NCBI GenBank assembly: GCA_017623115.1
Contig: JAGAPT010000003.1
Span: 1-44,734, forward strand
From: Alistipes sp.
GTDB taxonomy: Bacteria; Bacteroidota; Bacteroidia; Bacteroidales; Rikenellaceae
DNA: 44,734 nt
Direction: 5' to 3'
In this document: in pieces, positions 1,727-9,381 of the stretch
Numbering within the stretch: position 1 is the first letter of the stretch
Layout: the number at the start of each line of letters is the position of its first letter
Translations under genes and position numbers: made by a program
Notes under the pieces: model-generated
Told to the model about the DNA's origin: nothing
What the model saw: the letters and a program-made list of their open reading frames with translations, nothing else
Database searches by the model: none

Positions 1727-3694
1727 TTACTTCCGATAGGCCTCAATGCCTCGCTTCAGGAAATCGACAAAGGCCGCCACATCGAGGTCATAGCCTCGCG
1801 GCTCAACCAACTGATTGCCCTCGTTGTCCTGCAACACATAAAAGGGTTGTGCATTGACTCCATACGTTTTCAGCGCATAGTAGGAGTTGATTTTTCCCAA
1901 TTGCTTGAGCACCTTGCCGGTGTCGGTCGTTACCCAGGCCTCTTTGGGCAGCACCGTCTTGTCATCCGAATAGAGGGCACATACCACATAGTCATTTTTC
2001 AAGCGTGCAAGTACCTCGTCATCCGACCATACGCGCATCTCCATTTCACGGCAATTGACGCAACCATGCCCCGTGAAGTCGATAAAGAGCGGTTTGCCGA
2101 CCTCCTTGGCATAGGCCTCGGCCTCCTCCAGGTCGAAGAAGCCCTCGATGCCGTGAGGCAGGTGGAGAAAGTCGCTGTATTTACGTCCGGCAGGAGCCTG
2201 CGTGGGCTGCTGTACGGCACTTCCCGACCCCATCACAAAGTCTTGGCTCGTGAGCGGAGGCAGGTAGCCCGAAAGACCCGAGAGCGGAGCACCCCACATG
2301 CCCGGAATCAGATAAACGACAAACGAGAAGGTGACGATGGCGAGAGCCAGGCGGGTTACGCTGACATACTTCACCTCGCTGTCGTGGGCGAATTTCAGTT
2401 TGCCAAGCAGATAGAAGCCCAACATTGTGAAGACCACAATCCAGATGGCGAGATAAATCTCGCGGTCGAGAATTCCCCAGTGGTAGACCTGGTCGGCCAC
2501 CGACAAAAATTTCAGACCCAAGGCTACCTCAATAAAGCCGATAACGACCTTTACCGAATTGAGCCAACCGCCACTCTTTGGCAGATTCTTCAGCAACGAA
2601 GGGAAGAAGGCGAAGAGGGTGAAGGGCAGGGCAAAAGCTACCGAGAAGGCAAGCATGGTCAGGATGGGCGACCAGAACTCCCCGGCTGTCGATTTAATCA
2701 GTACCGATCCGACGATAGGACCTGTGCAGGAGAAGGACACCAGCACGAGTGTCAAGGCGAGGAAGAAGATACCTCCCAACCCCTTCGTATCGGCCTTTGC
2801 GTCGGTTTTATTGACCATCCACGAGGGCATTGTAATCTCGAATGCACCAAAGAACGATGCTGCAAAGAGCATGAATACCAAGAAGAAAATCACGTTTGGC
2901 AGCCAGTGTGTAGCCAGCCAGTTGAAGATGTCGGCTGTTACCGAATCGCCACCCACAAAGCGTGTAATGAGGATGATAGCTGCAATCGGCAACGTATAAA
3001 GTCCGACGATGAACAGCCCATAGAGTGCTGCACGCAGACGACCTCGAGCCACACCTCCCTCGCCTTTGAGAAAGTAGGAGACGGTCATCGGAACCATCGG
3101 GAAGACGCAGGGGGTAAGCAGCGCAGCAAATCCCCACAGAATGGCCTCGATAATGAGCGACCAGAGCGACCCCTCGCCGGCAACATCTTTCGGGGCTTCA
3201 GCAATCGTTTCCGGAGCCTCTTGCACACGCTCGGCTGCCGGCTTGGGTTCCCCGAGGGTGATGCTCAATTCGATGTCGCCCGGCACGCACGCTCCCTGAC
3301 GGCAGATTTGCCAATCGAGTTGCGCCTTCACCACGGCACCCGTATCGACCAAACGTACCCACTGCGCAAAGCGAGCCATGCGCTCGTAATAACCAATCTC
3401 CATGTCGAAGATGGCGTCGTATTCACGATGTGGTTTGTCGAGAGCTTCCAAAGCCCCCTCCACTTCGGCACCATCGGCCGTAATAGCGATGGTCGTCGGC
3501 ATAGGGCCTCCTGCATAGGGGCCTAAATCATACATGTGGTAGCCCATCGGTATCTCCGCCTCAAAGAGGAGTCTATAACGCTCTCCGGCGACCGAATCGG
3601 TTTTTACCGTCCAGCGCACATCCTGCGCGGTGAGGCTCTCCATCGCAAAGAGTGCTACTGCAAGTAGCCACATCCGTAACATCAATTTCTTCAT
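1727..3694 (-). CDS. dsbD: DsbD-like thiol:disulfide interchange protein (cytochrome c biogenesis family)
   Basis: A 655-residue inner-membrane electron-transfer protein. It moves reducing equivalents from cytoplasmic thioredoxin to periplasmic thiols. Order: signal peptide (about 1-24); N-terminal immunoglobulin-like DsbD-alpha domain with redox pair C131/C136 (CRQGAC); eight or so membrane helices (about 180-465) with the two buried cysteines C196 (TPCVFPMVP) and C323 (SFSCTGPIVG); and a C-terminal thioredoxin-like domain with CVNC at 545-548. All three cysteine pairs are intact, so it should be functional. It is the last gene of an operon, 16 bases after the radical SAM gene and next to a lipoprotein gene. 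Its substrate here may be that system or general periplasmic thiol redox. The start ATG (3694) is directly followed by MKK and a hydrophobic stretch. Confidence 0.92.
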   Translation of the reverse strand: MKKLMLRMWLLAVALFAMESLTAQDVRWTVKTDSVAGERYRLLFEAEIPMGYHMYDLGPYAGGPMPTTIAITADGAEVEGALEALDKPHREYDAIFDMEIGYYERMARFAQWVRLVDTGAVVKAQLDWQICRQGACVPGDIELSITLGEPKPAAERVQEAPETIAEAPKDVAGEGSLWSLIIEAILWGFAALLTPCVFPMVPMTVSYFLKGEGGVARGRLRAALYGLFIVGLYTLPIAAIILITRFVGGDSVTADIFNWLATHWLPNVIFFLVFMLFAASFFGAFEITMPSWMVNKTDAKADTKGLGGIFFLALTLVLVSFSCTGPIVGSVLIKSTAGEFWSPILTMLAFSVAFALPFTLFAFFPSLLKNLPKSGGWLNSVKVVIGFIEVALGLKFLSVADQVYHWGILDREIYLAIWIVVFTMLGFYLLGKLKFAHDSEVKYVSVTRLALAIVTFSFVVYLIPGMWGAPLSGLSGYLPPLTSQDFVMGSGSAVQQPTQAPAGRKYSDFLHLPHGIEGFFDLEEAEAYAKEVGKPLFIDFTGHGCVNCREMEMRVWSDDEVLARLKNDYVVCALYSDDKTVLPKEAWVTTDTGKVLKQLGKINSYYALKTYGVNAQPFYVLQDNEGNQLVEPRGYDLDVAAFVDFLKRGIEAYRK

Positions 3695-3710
3695 GCGTTT
3701 GCTATTTTAG

Positions 3711-4796
3711 TTATTTTTCTTCATACAATTTGCGGTAATGGCAGTAGAGTAACTCTCCCTGCTCATCACGCAGGTGCATGCCCCCACCCTGGCAGTAGCG
3801 AAACATTTTGCAGGCAGCGCATGCCCCCTGTCGCATCCACTCCCGATTGCGGAAGGGCTCGAAGCGTTGTTCCCACACCTCCCAGAATCGGTCGTGATAG
3901 ATGTTGCCCTGATGGTAGTCGGCCCGAATTGAGGTACACCCCGAGATGGCACCATCTACCCGTATCGAGGCCACCGAAACGCCGGCAGCACATTGATAGA
4001 AGTGGTCACGAACCTCGGCCTCATACTCGCCCAGGAATCCTTCGCAGGCGTAACTGACCTCCATTCGTTTCGTTTTGCGCATTGTGCGGATGAAGTCGAG
4101 CATTGTGCGGAACTCCTCGGAAGTGAGTTGAAGGCTTCGATCCTCTTTGGCACGCCCCATCGGAAATATCGAGAAGAGCCGCCACTCTCGAACACCCTCA
4201 CTGAGCAGCATTTCTGCCATCTCGGGCAACCGATGCACCATCGCGCCGGTTACACAGGTAACGACATCGAAGGCTAATTCAGGATAGCGACGGATGGCCC
4301 GAATGGCTGCCAACGCCCTCTCGAAACTCTTCGGGTGGCGACGCATCGCATTGTGTTCCTGCTCAAAGCCGTCGAGGCTCACCGATACGGTGCGCAACCC
4401 CGCATCGACCAATCGAGCCAATCGCTCCTCATCGAGAGCCAGCCCATTGGTTACCATTCCCCACGGATATCCGCGTCGGGTTACCTCGCGACCGGCCTCC
4501 TCCAAATCGGAGCGCATCAGCACCTCGCCACCGGAGAAGATGATGAGCACCTCGCGGGGATTGACATGGGGCGTAATCTCCTCATCGAGTACTCGCAGAA
4601 AATCGGCCAACGGCATATCGGCTGTGCGGGTATCGCTGCGGCAATCGCTGCCACAATGGCGGCAATTGAGGTTGCACCGCAGGGTACACTCCCAAAAGAG
4701 CGTATCGAGGCGATGCTCGGCGACCTTCTCCCGATATAAATCGGCAAAGAGGCCGAGTGCTAACCGTTTTCGCAATCCCAACCGACACCCTGCCAT
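3711..4796 (-). CDS. Radical SAM/SPASM enzyme, rSAM/lipoprotein system (TIGR04133-like)
   Basis: A 361-residue radical S-adenosylmethionine enzyme. The canonical CxxxCxxC iron-sulfur motif is C41-C45-C48 (CNLNCRHC), and the SAM-binding SGGE is at 88-91. A C-terminal SPASM-like domain for auxiliary clusters has C269, C287 (G-x4-C), C326, C329, C335 and C352. The usual next cysteine after C335 is replaced by glycine in the CQGGGMH stretch. From memory of the families, this matches the Bacteroidales radical SAM enzyme found beside a small lipoprotein (TIGR04133 with TIGR04134), whose chemistry is unknown. The partner gene ends 9 bases upstream and a DsbD-like gene starts 16 bases downstream, so all three are probably co-transcribed. 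Modification of the lipoprotein peptide is inference from SPASM enzymes in general. Confidence 0.88.
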   Translation of the reverse strand: MAGCRLGLRKRLALGLFADLYREKVAEHRLDTLFWECTLRCNLNCRHCGSDCRSDTRTADMPLADFLRVLDEEITPHVNPREVLIIFSGGEVLMRSDLEEAGREVTRRGYPWGMVTNGLALDEERLARLVDAGLRTVSVSLDGFEQEHNAMRRHPKSFERALAAIRAIRRYPELAFDVVTCVTGAMVHRLPEMAEMLLSEGVREWRLFSIFPMGRAKEDRSLQLTSEEFRTMLDFIRTMRKTKRMEVSYACEGFLGEYEAEVRDHFYQCAAGVSVASIRVDGAISGCTSIRADYHQGNIYHDRFWEVWEQRFEPFRNREWMRQGACAACKMFRYCQGGGMHLRDEQGELLYCHYRKLYEEK

Positions 4797-4805
4797 GCGC
4801 TGTTG

Positions 4806-5078
4806 CTACTTCTTGGGGGCGTTTTCAACCGGTGACTCGAGTGGCTCGGCATAAATCTTTTTGCCCTTGTCAACCTCTGTGGTATCCGTCTTCAGTTTCT
4901 CCTCCACAAGTGTCGGGCGGGGCGAAGGCACGCCATACATCAATTTGATGCGTTGCGCTTCCGACGCTTCAAGGGTCGTCAGCCCTTCGGGACTCTCCTG
5001 TGGCGCATTTTTCACCGTCGAGCAGGCTGTCGAGAATCCCAACAGAGCCGCAAGCATTAATTTTACTCTCTTTTTCAT
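4806..5078 (-). CDS. Small lipoprotein partner of the radical SAM enzyme (TIGR04134-like)
   Basis: A 90-residue protein with a basic N-terminus (MKKRVK), a short hydrophobic stretch and a lipobox ending STAC, so the mature protein starts at the lipidated C19. The mature 72 residues are hydrophilic, rich in Pro, Glu, Lys and Thr, with no predicted fold. They carry the block MYGVPSPRP (residues 47-55), which resembles the conserved MYG-P block recalled for lipoproteins encoded next to this radical SAM family. C19 is the only cysteine, so any modification would have to target other residues. It is the first gene of the three-gene operon with the radical SAM and DsbD-like genes. Its length is at the short end; longer relatives carry a carboxypeptidase-regulatory-like domain that is absent here. 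Outer-membrane or surface location is inferred. Confidence 0.8.
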   Translation of the reverse strand: MKKRVKLMLAALLGFSTACSTVKNAPQESPEGLTTLEASEAQRIKLMYGVPSPRPTLVEEKLKTDTTEVDKGKKIYAEPLESPVENAPKK

Positions 5079-5113
5079 CGTTTTGCGGTATTTGGACTAT
5101 CATTCCAATTTTG

Positions 5114-5121
5114 CAAATATA
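5114..5121 (-). promoter_or_regulatory. -7 element of the lipoprotein/radical SAM/DsbD operon
   Basis: The minus strand carries TATATTTG, a perfect TAnnTTTG match, 36 bases upstream of the lipoprotein ATG. No TTTG lies at the standard distance; the nearest TTG triplets leave 13-16 bases. A weak -33 suggests dependence on an activator, and an inverted repeat (5146-5167) lies just upstream. Confidence 0.6.
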
Positions 5122-7376: not shown

Positions 7377-7733
7377 ATGAGTAGCCGCAAAAACAACTCG
7401 GGTGGAGGTTTCTTAATCGGTCTTCTGCTCTTTATGGTGGGTGTTGCAGGTGCGCTGCTTTCGGGGCTGACGGCCTTGATCGTATGGCTCTCCTCGTGGC
7501 TCGGTGTAACGATGGCCGCATTGGTTGTAAGCCTGCTGTTTATGCTGATAGCCCTCTTGAGTTATGCGCTTTCGCTACACGGCACCATAAAACGCATCGG
7601 GAAACAGTTTGAGACGGTCTCCTATGTGGCCGATTTGATTGAAAGCGGTTACGACTGGGTGCGAGGAAAAACAGCATTGGCACTACGTGTTGTGGAGCAA
7701 CTCCTCGACCGCTTGGTGCCTCCTACCACCTAA
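7377..7733 (+). CDS. Holin-like (DUF1469/phage_holin_3_6-type) membrane protein
   Basis: A 118-residue protein with a short charged N-terminus and two adjacent membrane helices (about 13-38 and 43-68), then a soluble amphipathic tail. This topology is typical of the so-called phage holin superfamily III/DUF1469 proteins. They are usually chromosomal and not phage-related, and often sit next to YtxH genes, as here (4-base gap). The function is unknown, presumably in envelope organisation or stress. No phage genes are nearby. The family assignment rests on topology and context. Confidence 0.7.
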   Translation: MSSRKNNSGGGFLIGLLLFMVGVAGALLSGLTALIVWLSSWLGVTMAALVVSLLFMLIALLSYALSLHGTIKRIGKQFETVSYVADLIESGYDWVRGKTALALRVVEQLLDRLVPPTT

Positions 7734-7773
7734 AAACAAAGAGGGTGTCACAACTTTTCGGTTGGACACCCTC
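7734..7773. terminator. Terminator between holin-like gene and rubrerythrin
   Basis: Stem GAGGGTGTC/GACACCCTC (7741-7749 with 7765-7773), extended by CAAC/GTTG across one bulged A, with a short loop. The minus strand continues TTTGTTTTT after the hairpin, so it is strongest for the rubrerythrin transcript. The plus side has only a weak T-tract. Confidence 0.75.
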
Positions 7774-7792
7774 TCGTTATAGAAACGGTTGC

Positions 7793-8341
7793 TTATTTGA
7801 AATAGCGGTTGTAGAGACCCTCGAAGCCCTTGCCGTGGCGAGCCTCGTCCTTTGCCATCTCGTGAACGGTGTCATGCACAGCGTCGAGGTTCTGCTCTTT
7901 GGCAATCTTGGCCAGGTGCATCTTACCCTCGCAAGCACCGCACTCGGCATTCATGCGCTTGTACAGATTGGTCTTCGTATCCCACACCACCTCACCGATG
8001 AGCTCGGCAAACTTGGCAGCATGTTCAGCCTCCTCCCAAGCGTAACGCTTGAAAGCCTCGGCGATTTCGGGATAACCCTCGCGGTCAGCCTGACGGCTCA
8101 TGGCCAGGTACATACCAACCTCGGTGCACTCACCCATGAAGTGGTCTTGCAGACCCTGCCACAACTCGGCATCCGAACCCTTGCCGTCACCCAGCTGATG
8201 CTCGGTCACGAAATCCAGAGCGCCATCCTCGACAACCTCTACAAATTTATCGGCACCAACCTTGCACAACGGGCACTGCTCGGGAGCCTCATTACCTTCA
8301 TGAATGTAACCGCATACGGTACAACGAAACTTCTTTGCCAT
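7793..8341 (-). CDS. Reverse rubrerythrin (rubredoxin-ferritin-like peroxidase)
   Basis: A 182-residue oxidative-stress protein. The N-terminal rubredoxin domain has iron-binding C7, C10, C23 and C26 (CTVC...CPLC). A ferritin-like four-helix domain follows, with di-iron ligands in ECTEVG, WEEAEHA and KDEARHG. The rubredoxin is at the N-terminus, the reverse of classical rubrerythrin, as in the reverse rubrerythrins of anaerobes that reduce hydrogen peroxide with electrons from NAD(P)H via a reductase. It acts in the cytosol. It is monocistronic with a consensus promoter and a terminator. The electron donor cannot be told from sequence. Confidence 0.9.
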
Positions 8342-8460: not shown

Positions 8461-9381
8461 TTATTGCTGAAGCGCAGCCTCCAACTCCCCCACCTCGGTC
8501 GAATCTTTGACCAATACCTGCTTCTCGCTATTGAGCAGATAGAGCGATGGAATGGCGTTGATGTCATATAGATGCTGCTCCCGAATCACACACCCTTTAT
8601 CATAGGCGTTAATCCAATTGGCAGGGATATTCGGTCGATAGGCCTGCCAGGCCTTCAGGTCCTCGTCGGGATAGAGTGCCAGCACCTTCAGCCGCCCGGC
8701 GGCTATCAGCGAGGAGAGCACTTCGGATGACCCAATTTGTTCGCGTAACCCCTTACACATGGCGCAATCCGGATTGTTGAAGAAGAGCAGTACGAACTCG
8801 GCTTTCAGGTCATAGAGTGATCGCGTGATGCCATTGGCGGTTGTGTAGGCAAAATCTGCCGCCGGATGCCCGATGCGATTCTTGCGAGCCATCTCTAAAT
8901 CATACGCCGGGGCGATGCGCTCATACTCATCGTACCACGAAGCAGCAAGTTGTGCCTCCAGAACCGGAATATAAAACTCGTCACTACGTAAAGGCGAGTT
9001 GGGGTCATGCAACACCTGATCGGCCAAAAAGAGGAAGAGATCCATCATCGGTCGTGAAGCAGCGGCACGTTTCATCAGTCGTTGCATGGGGAGGCCGTTG
9101 GTCGGTTCTGGTGTACAGAGTGCCGTAAATTGTCCGAATCGCTGCAACATGGCCACCGTATCGACAGTTGCCAAGGCTGTGGTGTCGGCAAATCGGAAAT
9201 TATCCCAAAAGTGATCGCGGGCGAATTCGAGTTGCTGCCAACGATCAAAGGTAACCGGCGGAATCGGAATCGTGAACTCGTGCAGGGGTTGCACCACTTC
9301 AGGTTGCTTGGGTGAATGGGTACCACAGGCAACCATTGTCGCCCCTACCATGCACATAAGAGGTCTATATATCGGTTTCAT
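8461..9381 (-). CDS. Thioredoxin-fold lipoprotein with DUF5106-like N-terminal region
   Basis: A 306-residue lipoprotein. The signal peptide ends at C19 (TMVAC). A helical DUF5106-type region spans about 45-160. A C-terminal thioredoxin-like domain (about 170-306) has CAMC at 206-209 and a cis-proline-like segment, NAIPSLYLL. In Bacteroidetes such proteins sit in the periplasm or outer membrane and are thought to handle thiol-disulfide exchange. The CxxC suggests redox activity; the partner is unknown. The -7 element ends only 4 bases upstream of the ATG, so the transcript may be nearly leaderless. Methionines at 9 and 11 are alternative starts, but they would leave too short a signal peptide. 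Confidence 0.82.
   Translation of the reverse strand: MKPIYRPLMCMVGATMVACGTHSPKQPEVVQPLHEFTIPIPPVTFDRWQQLEFARDHFWDNFRFADTTALATVDTVAMLQRFGQFTALCTPEPTNGLPMQRLMKRAAASRPMMDLFLFLADQVLHDPNSPLRSDEFYIPVLEAQLAASWYDEYERIAPAYDLEMARKNRIGHPAADFAYTTANGITRSLYDLKAEFVLLFFNNPDCAMCKGLREQIGSSEVLSSLIAAGRLKVLALYPDEDLKAWQAYRPNIPANWINAYDKGCVIREQHLYDINAIPSLYLLNSEKQVLVKDSTEVGELEAALQQ

Follow-up and report, generated by a model that had tools for sequence, protein, structure and literature searches.

A candidate lipoprotein splicease: a TIGR04133 radical SAM enzyme and its Tyr-Gly lipoprotein partner in Alistipes

Introduction

Among the closest described systems are the spliceases. PlpXY excises a tyramine equivalent at a Tyr-Gly (YG) site, and its natural sites are MYG and LYG (PMC10533398). 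Among tagged FtsZ variants, only two were spliced by PlpXY (PMC10533398, Nat Chem 2023); therefore, an XYG site alone is insufficient. PlpX has been placed in IPR026482 with Xaa-Tyr-Gly as its target, and its cluster contains precursors with nitrile hydratase-like or Nif11-like leaders together with the small protein PlpY (PMC11002830). The spliceotide products have been termed protease inhibitors (PMC11117315).

A second group, TIGR03913 (GDL motif peptide-associated maturase) with its DUF1843 peptides, falls into the same clade as TIGR04133. Each TIGR03913 enzyme has several small partner proteins, and many of these contain LYG or PYG close to their N-terminus. Unlike in TIGR04133, these partners are small and have no lipid anchor, and the SPASM cysteines of the enzyme are complete. 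The available part of a structural paper on DUF1843 gives no reaction for this group, and the words "radical" and "RiPP" are absent from it.

The enzyme/lipoprotein pair considered in this study is itself an already known family pair, TIGR04133/TIGR04134, and the family names carry no reaction. Our literature search, which covered the key spliceotide papers only partly, returned no mention of either family or of the pair, no reaction assigned to TIGR04133, no work joining as many as four of ketoamide, lipoprotein, radical SAM, RiPP and splicing, and none that brings together radical SAM, lipoprotein, Bacteroidales and SPASM. A word search of a paper on RiPP mining in Bacteroidales found neither TIGR04 nor spliceotide in its text.

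The locus studied here lies in a 44,734-nucleotide stretch of an Alistipes sp. genome (GCA_017623115.1, contig JAGAPT010000003.1), and "the window" denotes this whole stretch. Its enzyme is a full TIGR04133 member, and TIGR04134 partners at other loci share the YG site and the signal peptide motif of its lipoprotein; however, the window lipoprotein has a short tail without the TIGR04134 domain. As in PlpX/PlpY of Pleurocapsa, a radical SAM/SPASM enzyme of a related group stands beside an XYG partner, here MYG. In contrast to PlpX/PlpY, the putative substrate is a lipoprotein with a type II signal peptide and not a precursor with a Nif11 or nitrile hydratase-like leader, and TIGR04133 has no adjoining PlpY-like gene and one SPASM cysteine fewer. 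Beyond the known pair, we name a site and a likely leader, extend the putative substrates to a class outside TIGR04134, describe a sister clade and propose a specific reaction.

Results

Three minus-strand ORFs, for the lipoprotein, the enzyme and a DsbD-like protein, stand in series behind a single -7 type element (Table 1), with gaps of 9 bases between the first two genes and 16 bases between the last two. The pattern TAnnTTTG, the -7 type promoter element of Bacteroidota, occurs 37 times on both strands of the window, and because of this frequency the element is weak on its own. The features that an earlier note had read from this DNA (the ORFs, their spacing, Cys19, 72 mature residues, the MYGVPSPRP block, C41-C45-C48 and the -7 element) are all present in the sequence.

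Table 1. Positions of the features discussed in the text, numbered along the window.
Feature	Position	Strand	Remarks
-7 type promoter element, TAnnTTTG (TATATTTG)	5114..5121	minus	35 nt before the lipoprotein ATG
Partner lipoprotein ORF, 90 aa	4806..5078	minus	proposed substrate
Type II signal peptide, residues 1-18	5025..5078	minus	called by script from the lipobox and a hydrophobic stretch
LGF, residues 13-15, before the lipid cysteine	5034..5042	minus	alignment and motif count
Cys19, lipid anchor	5022..5024	minus	sole cysteine of the lipoprotein
Met47-Tyr48-Gly49, proposed splice site, followed by VPSPRP	4932..4940	minus	Tyr/Gly conservation in partners
Radical SAM/SPASM enzyme ORF, 361 aa, TIGR04133 family	3711..4796	minus	proposed lipoprotein splicease
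CX3CX2C motif, residues 41-48, radical SAM cluster	4653..4676	minus	within family block WECTLRCN..CRHCGSDC
SPASM region, C269 to C352	3741..3992	minus	G339 replaces the fourth Cys of CX2CX5CX3C
DsbD-like protein, 655 aa	1727..3694	minus	Pfam DsbD_TM, DsbD_N, Thioredoxin_7

The earlier note had taken the DsbD-like gene as a hint of a redox link in the envelope, and the three genes would then act as one redox operon, with the DsbD-like protein either assisting the modified lipoprotein or making use of it. The narrow gap in the window fits this reading, as does a DsbD-like match downstream of the enzyme at L069, L077 and L082, all near relatives of the window; by eye, similar ORFs were also seen at L007 and L013, two further loci of the same genus taken with 1.5 kb flanks. 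However, no DsbD-like gene follows the enzyme at 71 of the 74 loci with room for one, and the lipoprotein has no free cysteine. We regard the redox operon as highly improbable. Because the adjacency is confined to three of the 74 loci, the redox link was dropped and the gene was rejected as part of the system; it is probably a co-transcribed neighbour. A conserved third gene such as PlpY was not found either: no PlpY-like gene lies beside the window enzyme, and none recurred when ORFs of 45 aa or more, lying within 5 kb, were clustered across 80 TIGR04133 loci, although short divergent genes could escape such clustering. Apart from the enzyme and the lipoproteins, the largest cluster spanned 17 of the 80 loci and consisted mostly of antisense ORFs; the next two spanned 11 and 10.

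The window enzyme matches TIGR04133 (rSAM_w_lipo) at 592.3 bits over positions 1-349 of 350, against a curated cut-off of 425; the earlier note had named this family correctly. A profile search found one TIGR04133 match in the window's genome, and the Pfam domains Radical_SAM and SPASM were both found in the enzyme. Its residues C41, C45 and C48 are invariant among 63 aligned members, namely the window and 62 of the 79 loci that remained after L126, which has a stop near the end of the match, was omitted. Four additional cysteines (C37, C52, C181 and C251) are invariant in 26 of 26 TIGR04133 members, and both AhbD-like enzymes sampled also have a cysteine at the C251 column. The glycine that had been noticed earlier in place of one SPASM cysteine, G339, is a family-wide trait: its column holds Gly in 25 and Pro in one of the 26 TIGR04133 members sampled, vs. 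Cys in all 16 splice-like enzymes, by which we mean enzymes of the TIGR04103/TIGR03913 type. C251 might conceivably substitute for this missing ligand. TIGR04103, which we take to be the family of PlpX and the same entry as IPR026482, gave the window enzyme 130.5 bits, which fails its cut-off of 725, vs. 135.4 bits for heme b synthase; AhbD and NirJ models gave 121-135 bits. The nearest solved folds include peptide-modifying enzymes such as SuiB, and no solved splicease was among the structure matches listed, which excludes nothing.

The window lipoprotein, with MYGVPSPRP at residues 47-55 ahead of its short tail, did not match TIGR04134 (150 positions, 39.8 bits) at E-values up to 1, nor did the genome at E 0.001, and it had no Pfam match over the cut-off. 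We therefore reject it as a TIGR04134 member, contrary to the suggestion of the earlier note. Thioether formation, which that note had rightly considered unlikely, is rejected because a second cysteine is missing, and the cysteine in a modified core that marks sactipeptides and ranthipeptides is likewise absent. DNA matches to M-Y-G-x-P number six in the genome, and only that of the window sits in a small lipoprotein. A second lipoprotein-like ORF (window 8461-9381, minus strand, 306 aa) seems, by eye, to resemble thioredoxin towards the C-terminus and has no YG site near the anchor.

Of 295 genomes sampled from the order to which the window belongs, 61 had a TIGR04133 match over the cut-off; among the named genomes scanned, the family was present in Alistipes, Parabacteroides, Phocaeicola, Bacteroides and Butyricimonas. 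The latter scan confirmed 583 loci, of which the best 80 were used. A script that took no account of the motif picked as partner an adjacent upstream ORF that carries a type II signal peptide; this gave a partner at 72 loci (the pick at L122 is probably the wrong ORF), and 92 other lipoprotein-like ORFs from the same 80 loci served as background. A YG within 60 residues after the lipid cysteine occurs in 69 of the 72 partners vs. 18 of the 92 background proteins (Fisher p 3e-25); at L143, one of the 69, this YG is incidental and the motif position reads YA. YGx(1-2)P within the same distance occurs in 64 partners vs. four background proteins (Fisher p 3e-31), and three of these four (L102 twice and L110) look like partners approximately 4-6 kb from their own enzyme. 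The LGF motif precedes the lipid cysteine in 47/72 vs. 1/92. When the remaining loci were inspected by hand, a YG lipoprotein was present at 77 of 79 assessable loci, with YA at L124 and L143; this count includes two loci cut by contig ends (L118 and L133), and L141 ends 257 bases upstream. A second genome search with a stricter script and 1.5 kb flanks, which overlaps the first set in some species and in which the regex failed to recognise the enzyme at 5 of 56 loci, gave a YG partner at 45 of the 51 loci kept. The six misses comprise two loci with less than 400 bases of room (L021 and L252), one with YA (L027), one with DEYGV that was excluded by rule (L019), and two that are unexplained (L030 and L255).

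The co-occurrence of the two genes in related genomes had been set beforehand as a test, and the counts above bear it out, as they do the pairing proposed in the earlier note. Because related pairs exist in many species, chance pairing is ruled out; judged from these genomes, the gene pair is real. Adjacency and the shared YG site also support the earlier proposal that the lipoprotein is the likely substrate.

Alignment of 73 partners (the window and the 72 adjacent picks, 58-280 aa) indicated that the proteins differ in length, tail and domain yet share the YG site, mostly as YGxP. Only Gly14 of LGF (70/73), Cys19, Tyr48 (72/73) and Gly49 (69/73, with Ala in three and one gap) are at least 90% conserved. 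Immediately ahead of the first YG, 46 of 71 partners have Met, 12 have Glu and six have Cys, and in 54 of 71 a Pro stands two residues past the Gly. The residue directly after the Gly, position +1, is variable (V, T, S, I, P, A, C, M or D). Two YGx(1-2)P sites were present in 13 of the 73. At E 0.01, 34 of the 73 partners matched TIGR04134, and the other 39, including that of the window, did not. A TIGR04134 search of 395 genomes returned mostly stretches of large ORFs, with matches in 60 genomes at E 0.001 and in two over the cut-off.

The two motifs could instead be signals for export, sorting or folding, with the enzyme acting elsewhere, for example on a cofactor. This reading draws on the location of LGF inside the signal peptide, on the scores of AhbD and NirJ, which are models of tetrapyrrole enzymes, and on one same-genus genome (82% complete) that has an LGF/MYGxP lipoprotein and no enzyme over the cut-off, which counts against an enzyme substrate. 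However, such lipoproteins are absent from the other three of the four enzyme-free genomes of the genus, YGx(1-2)P tracks the enzyme, and the tree described below separates TIGR04133 from AhbD-like enzymes and NirJ. In addition, a TIGR04134-like lipoprotein in a genome lacking the enzyme (L040) has neither a YG-type motif nor LGF. We thus regard export or sorting signals as quite unlikely. Of five same-genus genomes with the enzyme, four have the exact-pattern lipoprotein, and the fifth has MYGVRPP beside the enzyme. One of these five genomes (G007, L217) has an LGF/MYGxP lipoprotein without the enzyme motif in its 3 kb; therefore, the partner is probably encoded at a distance from the enzyme in some cases.

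Relatives of the enzyme were sought in 72,556 plasmid records, and the best 60 of 149 matches at E 1e-6 were listed. The 10 records at E 1e-20 or better all belong to TIGR04133 or to the splice-like group. The TIGR04133 records are from Phocaeicola (unannotated), Parabacteroides and Treponema (both annotated as TIGR04133), and the splice-like ones, by annotation or tree, are from Nostoc, Azospirillum (three, the third of which, L176, is assigned by annotation only and is not in the tree), Aureibacter, Tropicibacter and Agathobacter. Among the matches listed, the next was NirJ at 8e-18, followed by TIGR04347, MftC, TIGR04053 and PqqE. A TIGR04103 search of 296 Bacteroidota genomes gave matches in nine, none over the cut-off; it supplied 10 of the 16 splice-like enzymes in our trees, and plasmids supplied six.

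Three maximum-likelihood trees were built. In the first, 26 TIGR04133 and 16 splice-like enzymes were separated from 17 others by a branch with support of 99/96, with L194 also on the inside. The second omitted seven long-branch or divergent rows, PqqE among them, and added two AhbD-like enzymes (four such loci were tried, two of which the regex missed); the same 26 and 16 enzymes were separated from 13 others, including NirJ, AhbD-like, MftC, TIGR04053 and TIGR04347, at 100/99, and the splice-like group itself was weakly held (51/51). AhbD and NirJ thus resemble the window enzyme in HMM score, and the AhbD-like enzymes also in the C251-column cysteine; in contrast to the splice-like enzymes, however, they fall outside this side of the tree. 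For six Bacteroidota splice-like enzymes, the best NCBIfam match after TIGR04103 and TIGR03913 is TIGR04133; for the seventh scanned, L153, heme b synthase ranks before TIGR04133, and two distant members score higher on TIGR04053. The closeness of TIGR04133 to TIGR04103/TIGR03913-type enzymes is a matter of the tree and the plasmid ranking, not of HMM score, in a comparison that included no PlpX sequence.

A sister clade of ten enzymes, from nine genomes of the window's order (L257-L265, 336-372 bits) and L194 (genome G053, 333 bits), was recovered at 100/99 in the third tree, in which the others were limited to NirJ and AhbD-like enzymes. Its lipoproteins carry YGxP at or next to the lipid cysteine at L194 and at all eight loci with room among L257-L265; at L258 it follows the next Cys, and in the second partner of L260 it lies three residues on. 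The signal peptides of this clade have a different motif, often TGSFS. More distant relatives (L266-L268) score 222-247 bits, and at L266, the one of these in which the regex recognised the enzyme, a YG lipoprotein was not found and the HCGSDC block is absent.

Discussion

The earlier note had suggested peptide modification, with a C-C bond or an epimerisation as the plausible change. The first part stands, with the lipoprotein as the likely substrate. As for the second, the YG site, the LGF motif and the clade with TIGR04103/TIGR03913-type enzymes, taken together, lead us to favour the excision of tyramine at the lipoprotein Tyr-Gly site by the TIGR04133 enzyme over an unnamed C-C bond or epimerisation; we consider excision probable, though well short of secure.

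The enzyme and the lipoprotein would constitute a minimal two-gene backbone-editing system, whose reaction, order of events, function and role for the signal peptide we infer as follows. The cytoplasmic enzyme would bind the unprocessed lipoprotein, probably through the signal peptide (LGF before the lipobox), which is a possible leader, and would act at Met47-Tyr48-Gly49. After editing, the precursor would be exported and would receive its lipid at Cys19; once it is held in the envelope, its electrophilic ketoamide could capture proteases or further nucleophiles.

Several observations speak against splicing, among them the missing SPASM cysteine, the four extra invariant cysteines, the lack of a PlpY-like gene, a TIGR04103 score that is far below the cut-off and slightly under that of heme b synthase, and the splice-like loci without a convincing YG partner. 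The CYG partners are also odd for a splicease in that the residue to be homologated would be the lipid-bearing Cys. At the same Tyr-Gly site, the enzyme might instead catalyse another radical reaction, such as a C-C or C-O cross-link of the tyrosine ring, hydroxylation, or epimerisation next to Gly. The site evidence is identical to that for splicing, altered SPASM ligands allow an altered reaction, SuiB is among the enzymes with the nearest folds, and the +1 residue is often V, T or S, a potential cross-link partner. However, that position varies, whereas the Gly is swapped only for Ala in the aligned partners, one gap aside; XYG is the described rule of spliceases (PMC10533398, PMC11002830), and the nearest enzyme group is splicease-like. 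We therefore judge a different reaction at this site to be unlikely, although it is the alternative that we take most seriously.

A wider form of the splicing proposal is that two-gene backbone editing of lipoproteins is widespread in Bacteroidales, with the signal peptide as the leader and an anchored ketoamide that traps proteases, and that the sister clade splices at the lipid-bearing Cys itself. Which protease such a trap catches would depend on the residue that had been X (Met, Glu or Ala). As a whole, this extension is tentative and rather doubtful.

Because the proposal specifies a site and a mass change and involves only two genes, the question is directly testable: the calculated mass of the tryptic peptide LMYGVPSPRPTLVEEK would fall from 1814.960 Da to 1679.892 Da upon the loss of C8H9NO (135.068 Da). 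Backbone excision at one tyrosine is a rare kind of protein editing. If splicing is correct, envelope lipoproteins of gut bacteria would contain ribosomal beta-amino acids, and proteases of the host and of other microbes would meet, in the ketoamide, an unusual chemistry at the cell surface.

Candidate partners of the splice-like enzymes were picked by eye, and an XYG protein adjoins the enzyme at 8 of the 16 loci. The Nostoc locus (L167) has the layout described for the PlpX cluster (PMC11002830), with an enzyme annotated as nif11-class maturase 3, Nif11 and NHLP precursors, one of which, a Nif11 precursor, ends in ALYGLPPELF, and a 71 aa protein directly downstream. At L151, a 165 aa protein ends in LLYGTPPVPLYQ plus a few further residues. 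A convincing YG partner was not found by eye at seven of the 16 loci (L152, L154-L157, L159 and L173), and L150 has LYMAHSK instead of YG. Within splice-like family f43 (L155-L159 and L166), a conserved neighbour of approximately 99 aa (..DPSVVMYL..) has no YG; therefore, the XYG rule is not valid for the whole splice-like group.

DUF1843 (PF08898) proteins with LYG or PYG near the start stand beside TIGR03913-type enzymes at L149/L160, L170, L171, L172 and L176, the first in a Bacteroidota genome and the others on Aureibacter and Azospirillum plasmids; some paralogues at L149, L170, L171 and L172 read YA or YM. These proteins may be splicease substrates, to judge from the motif and the gene order. 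Another genome of this order encodes, downstream of a TIGR04103-like enzyme, a protein of 214 aa (L153 at 2955-3599, the same as L161 at 7415-8059) that contains KYGYP six times, as KYGYPC or KYGYPG, and resembles a substrate with multiple sites. In Agathobacter rectalis (plasmid locus L168), an unannotated ORF at 3710-3916 that ends in GPVMYGTGVRM immediately precedes genes for a radical SAM protein and an MFS transporter.
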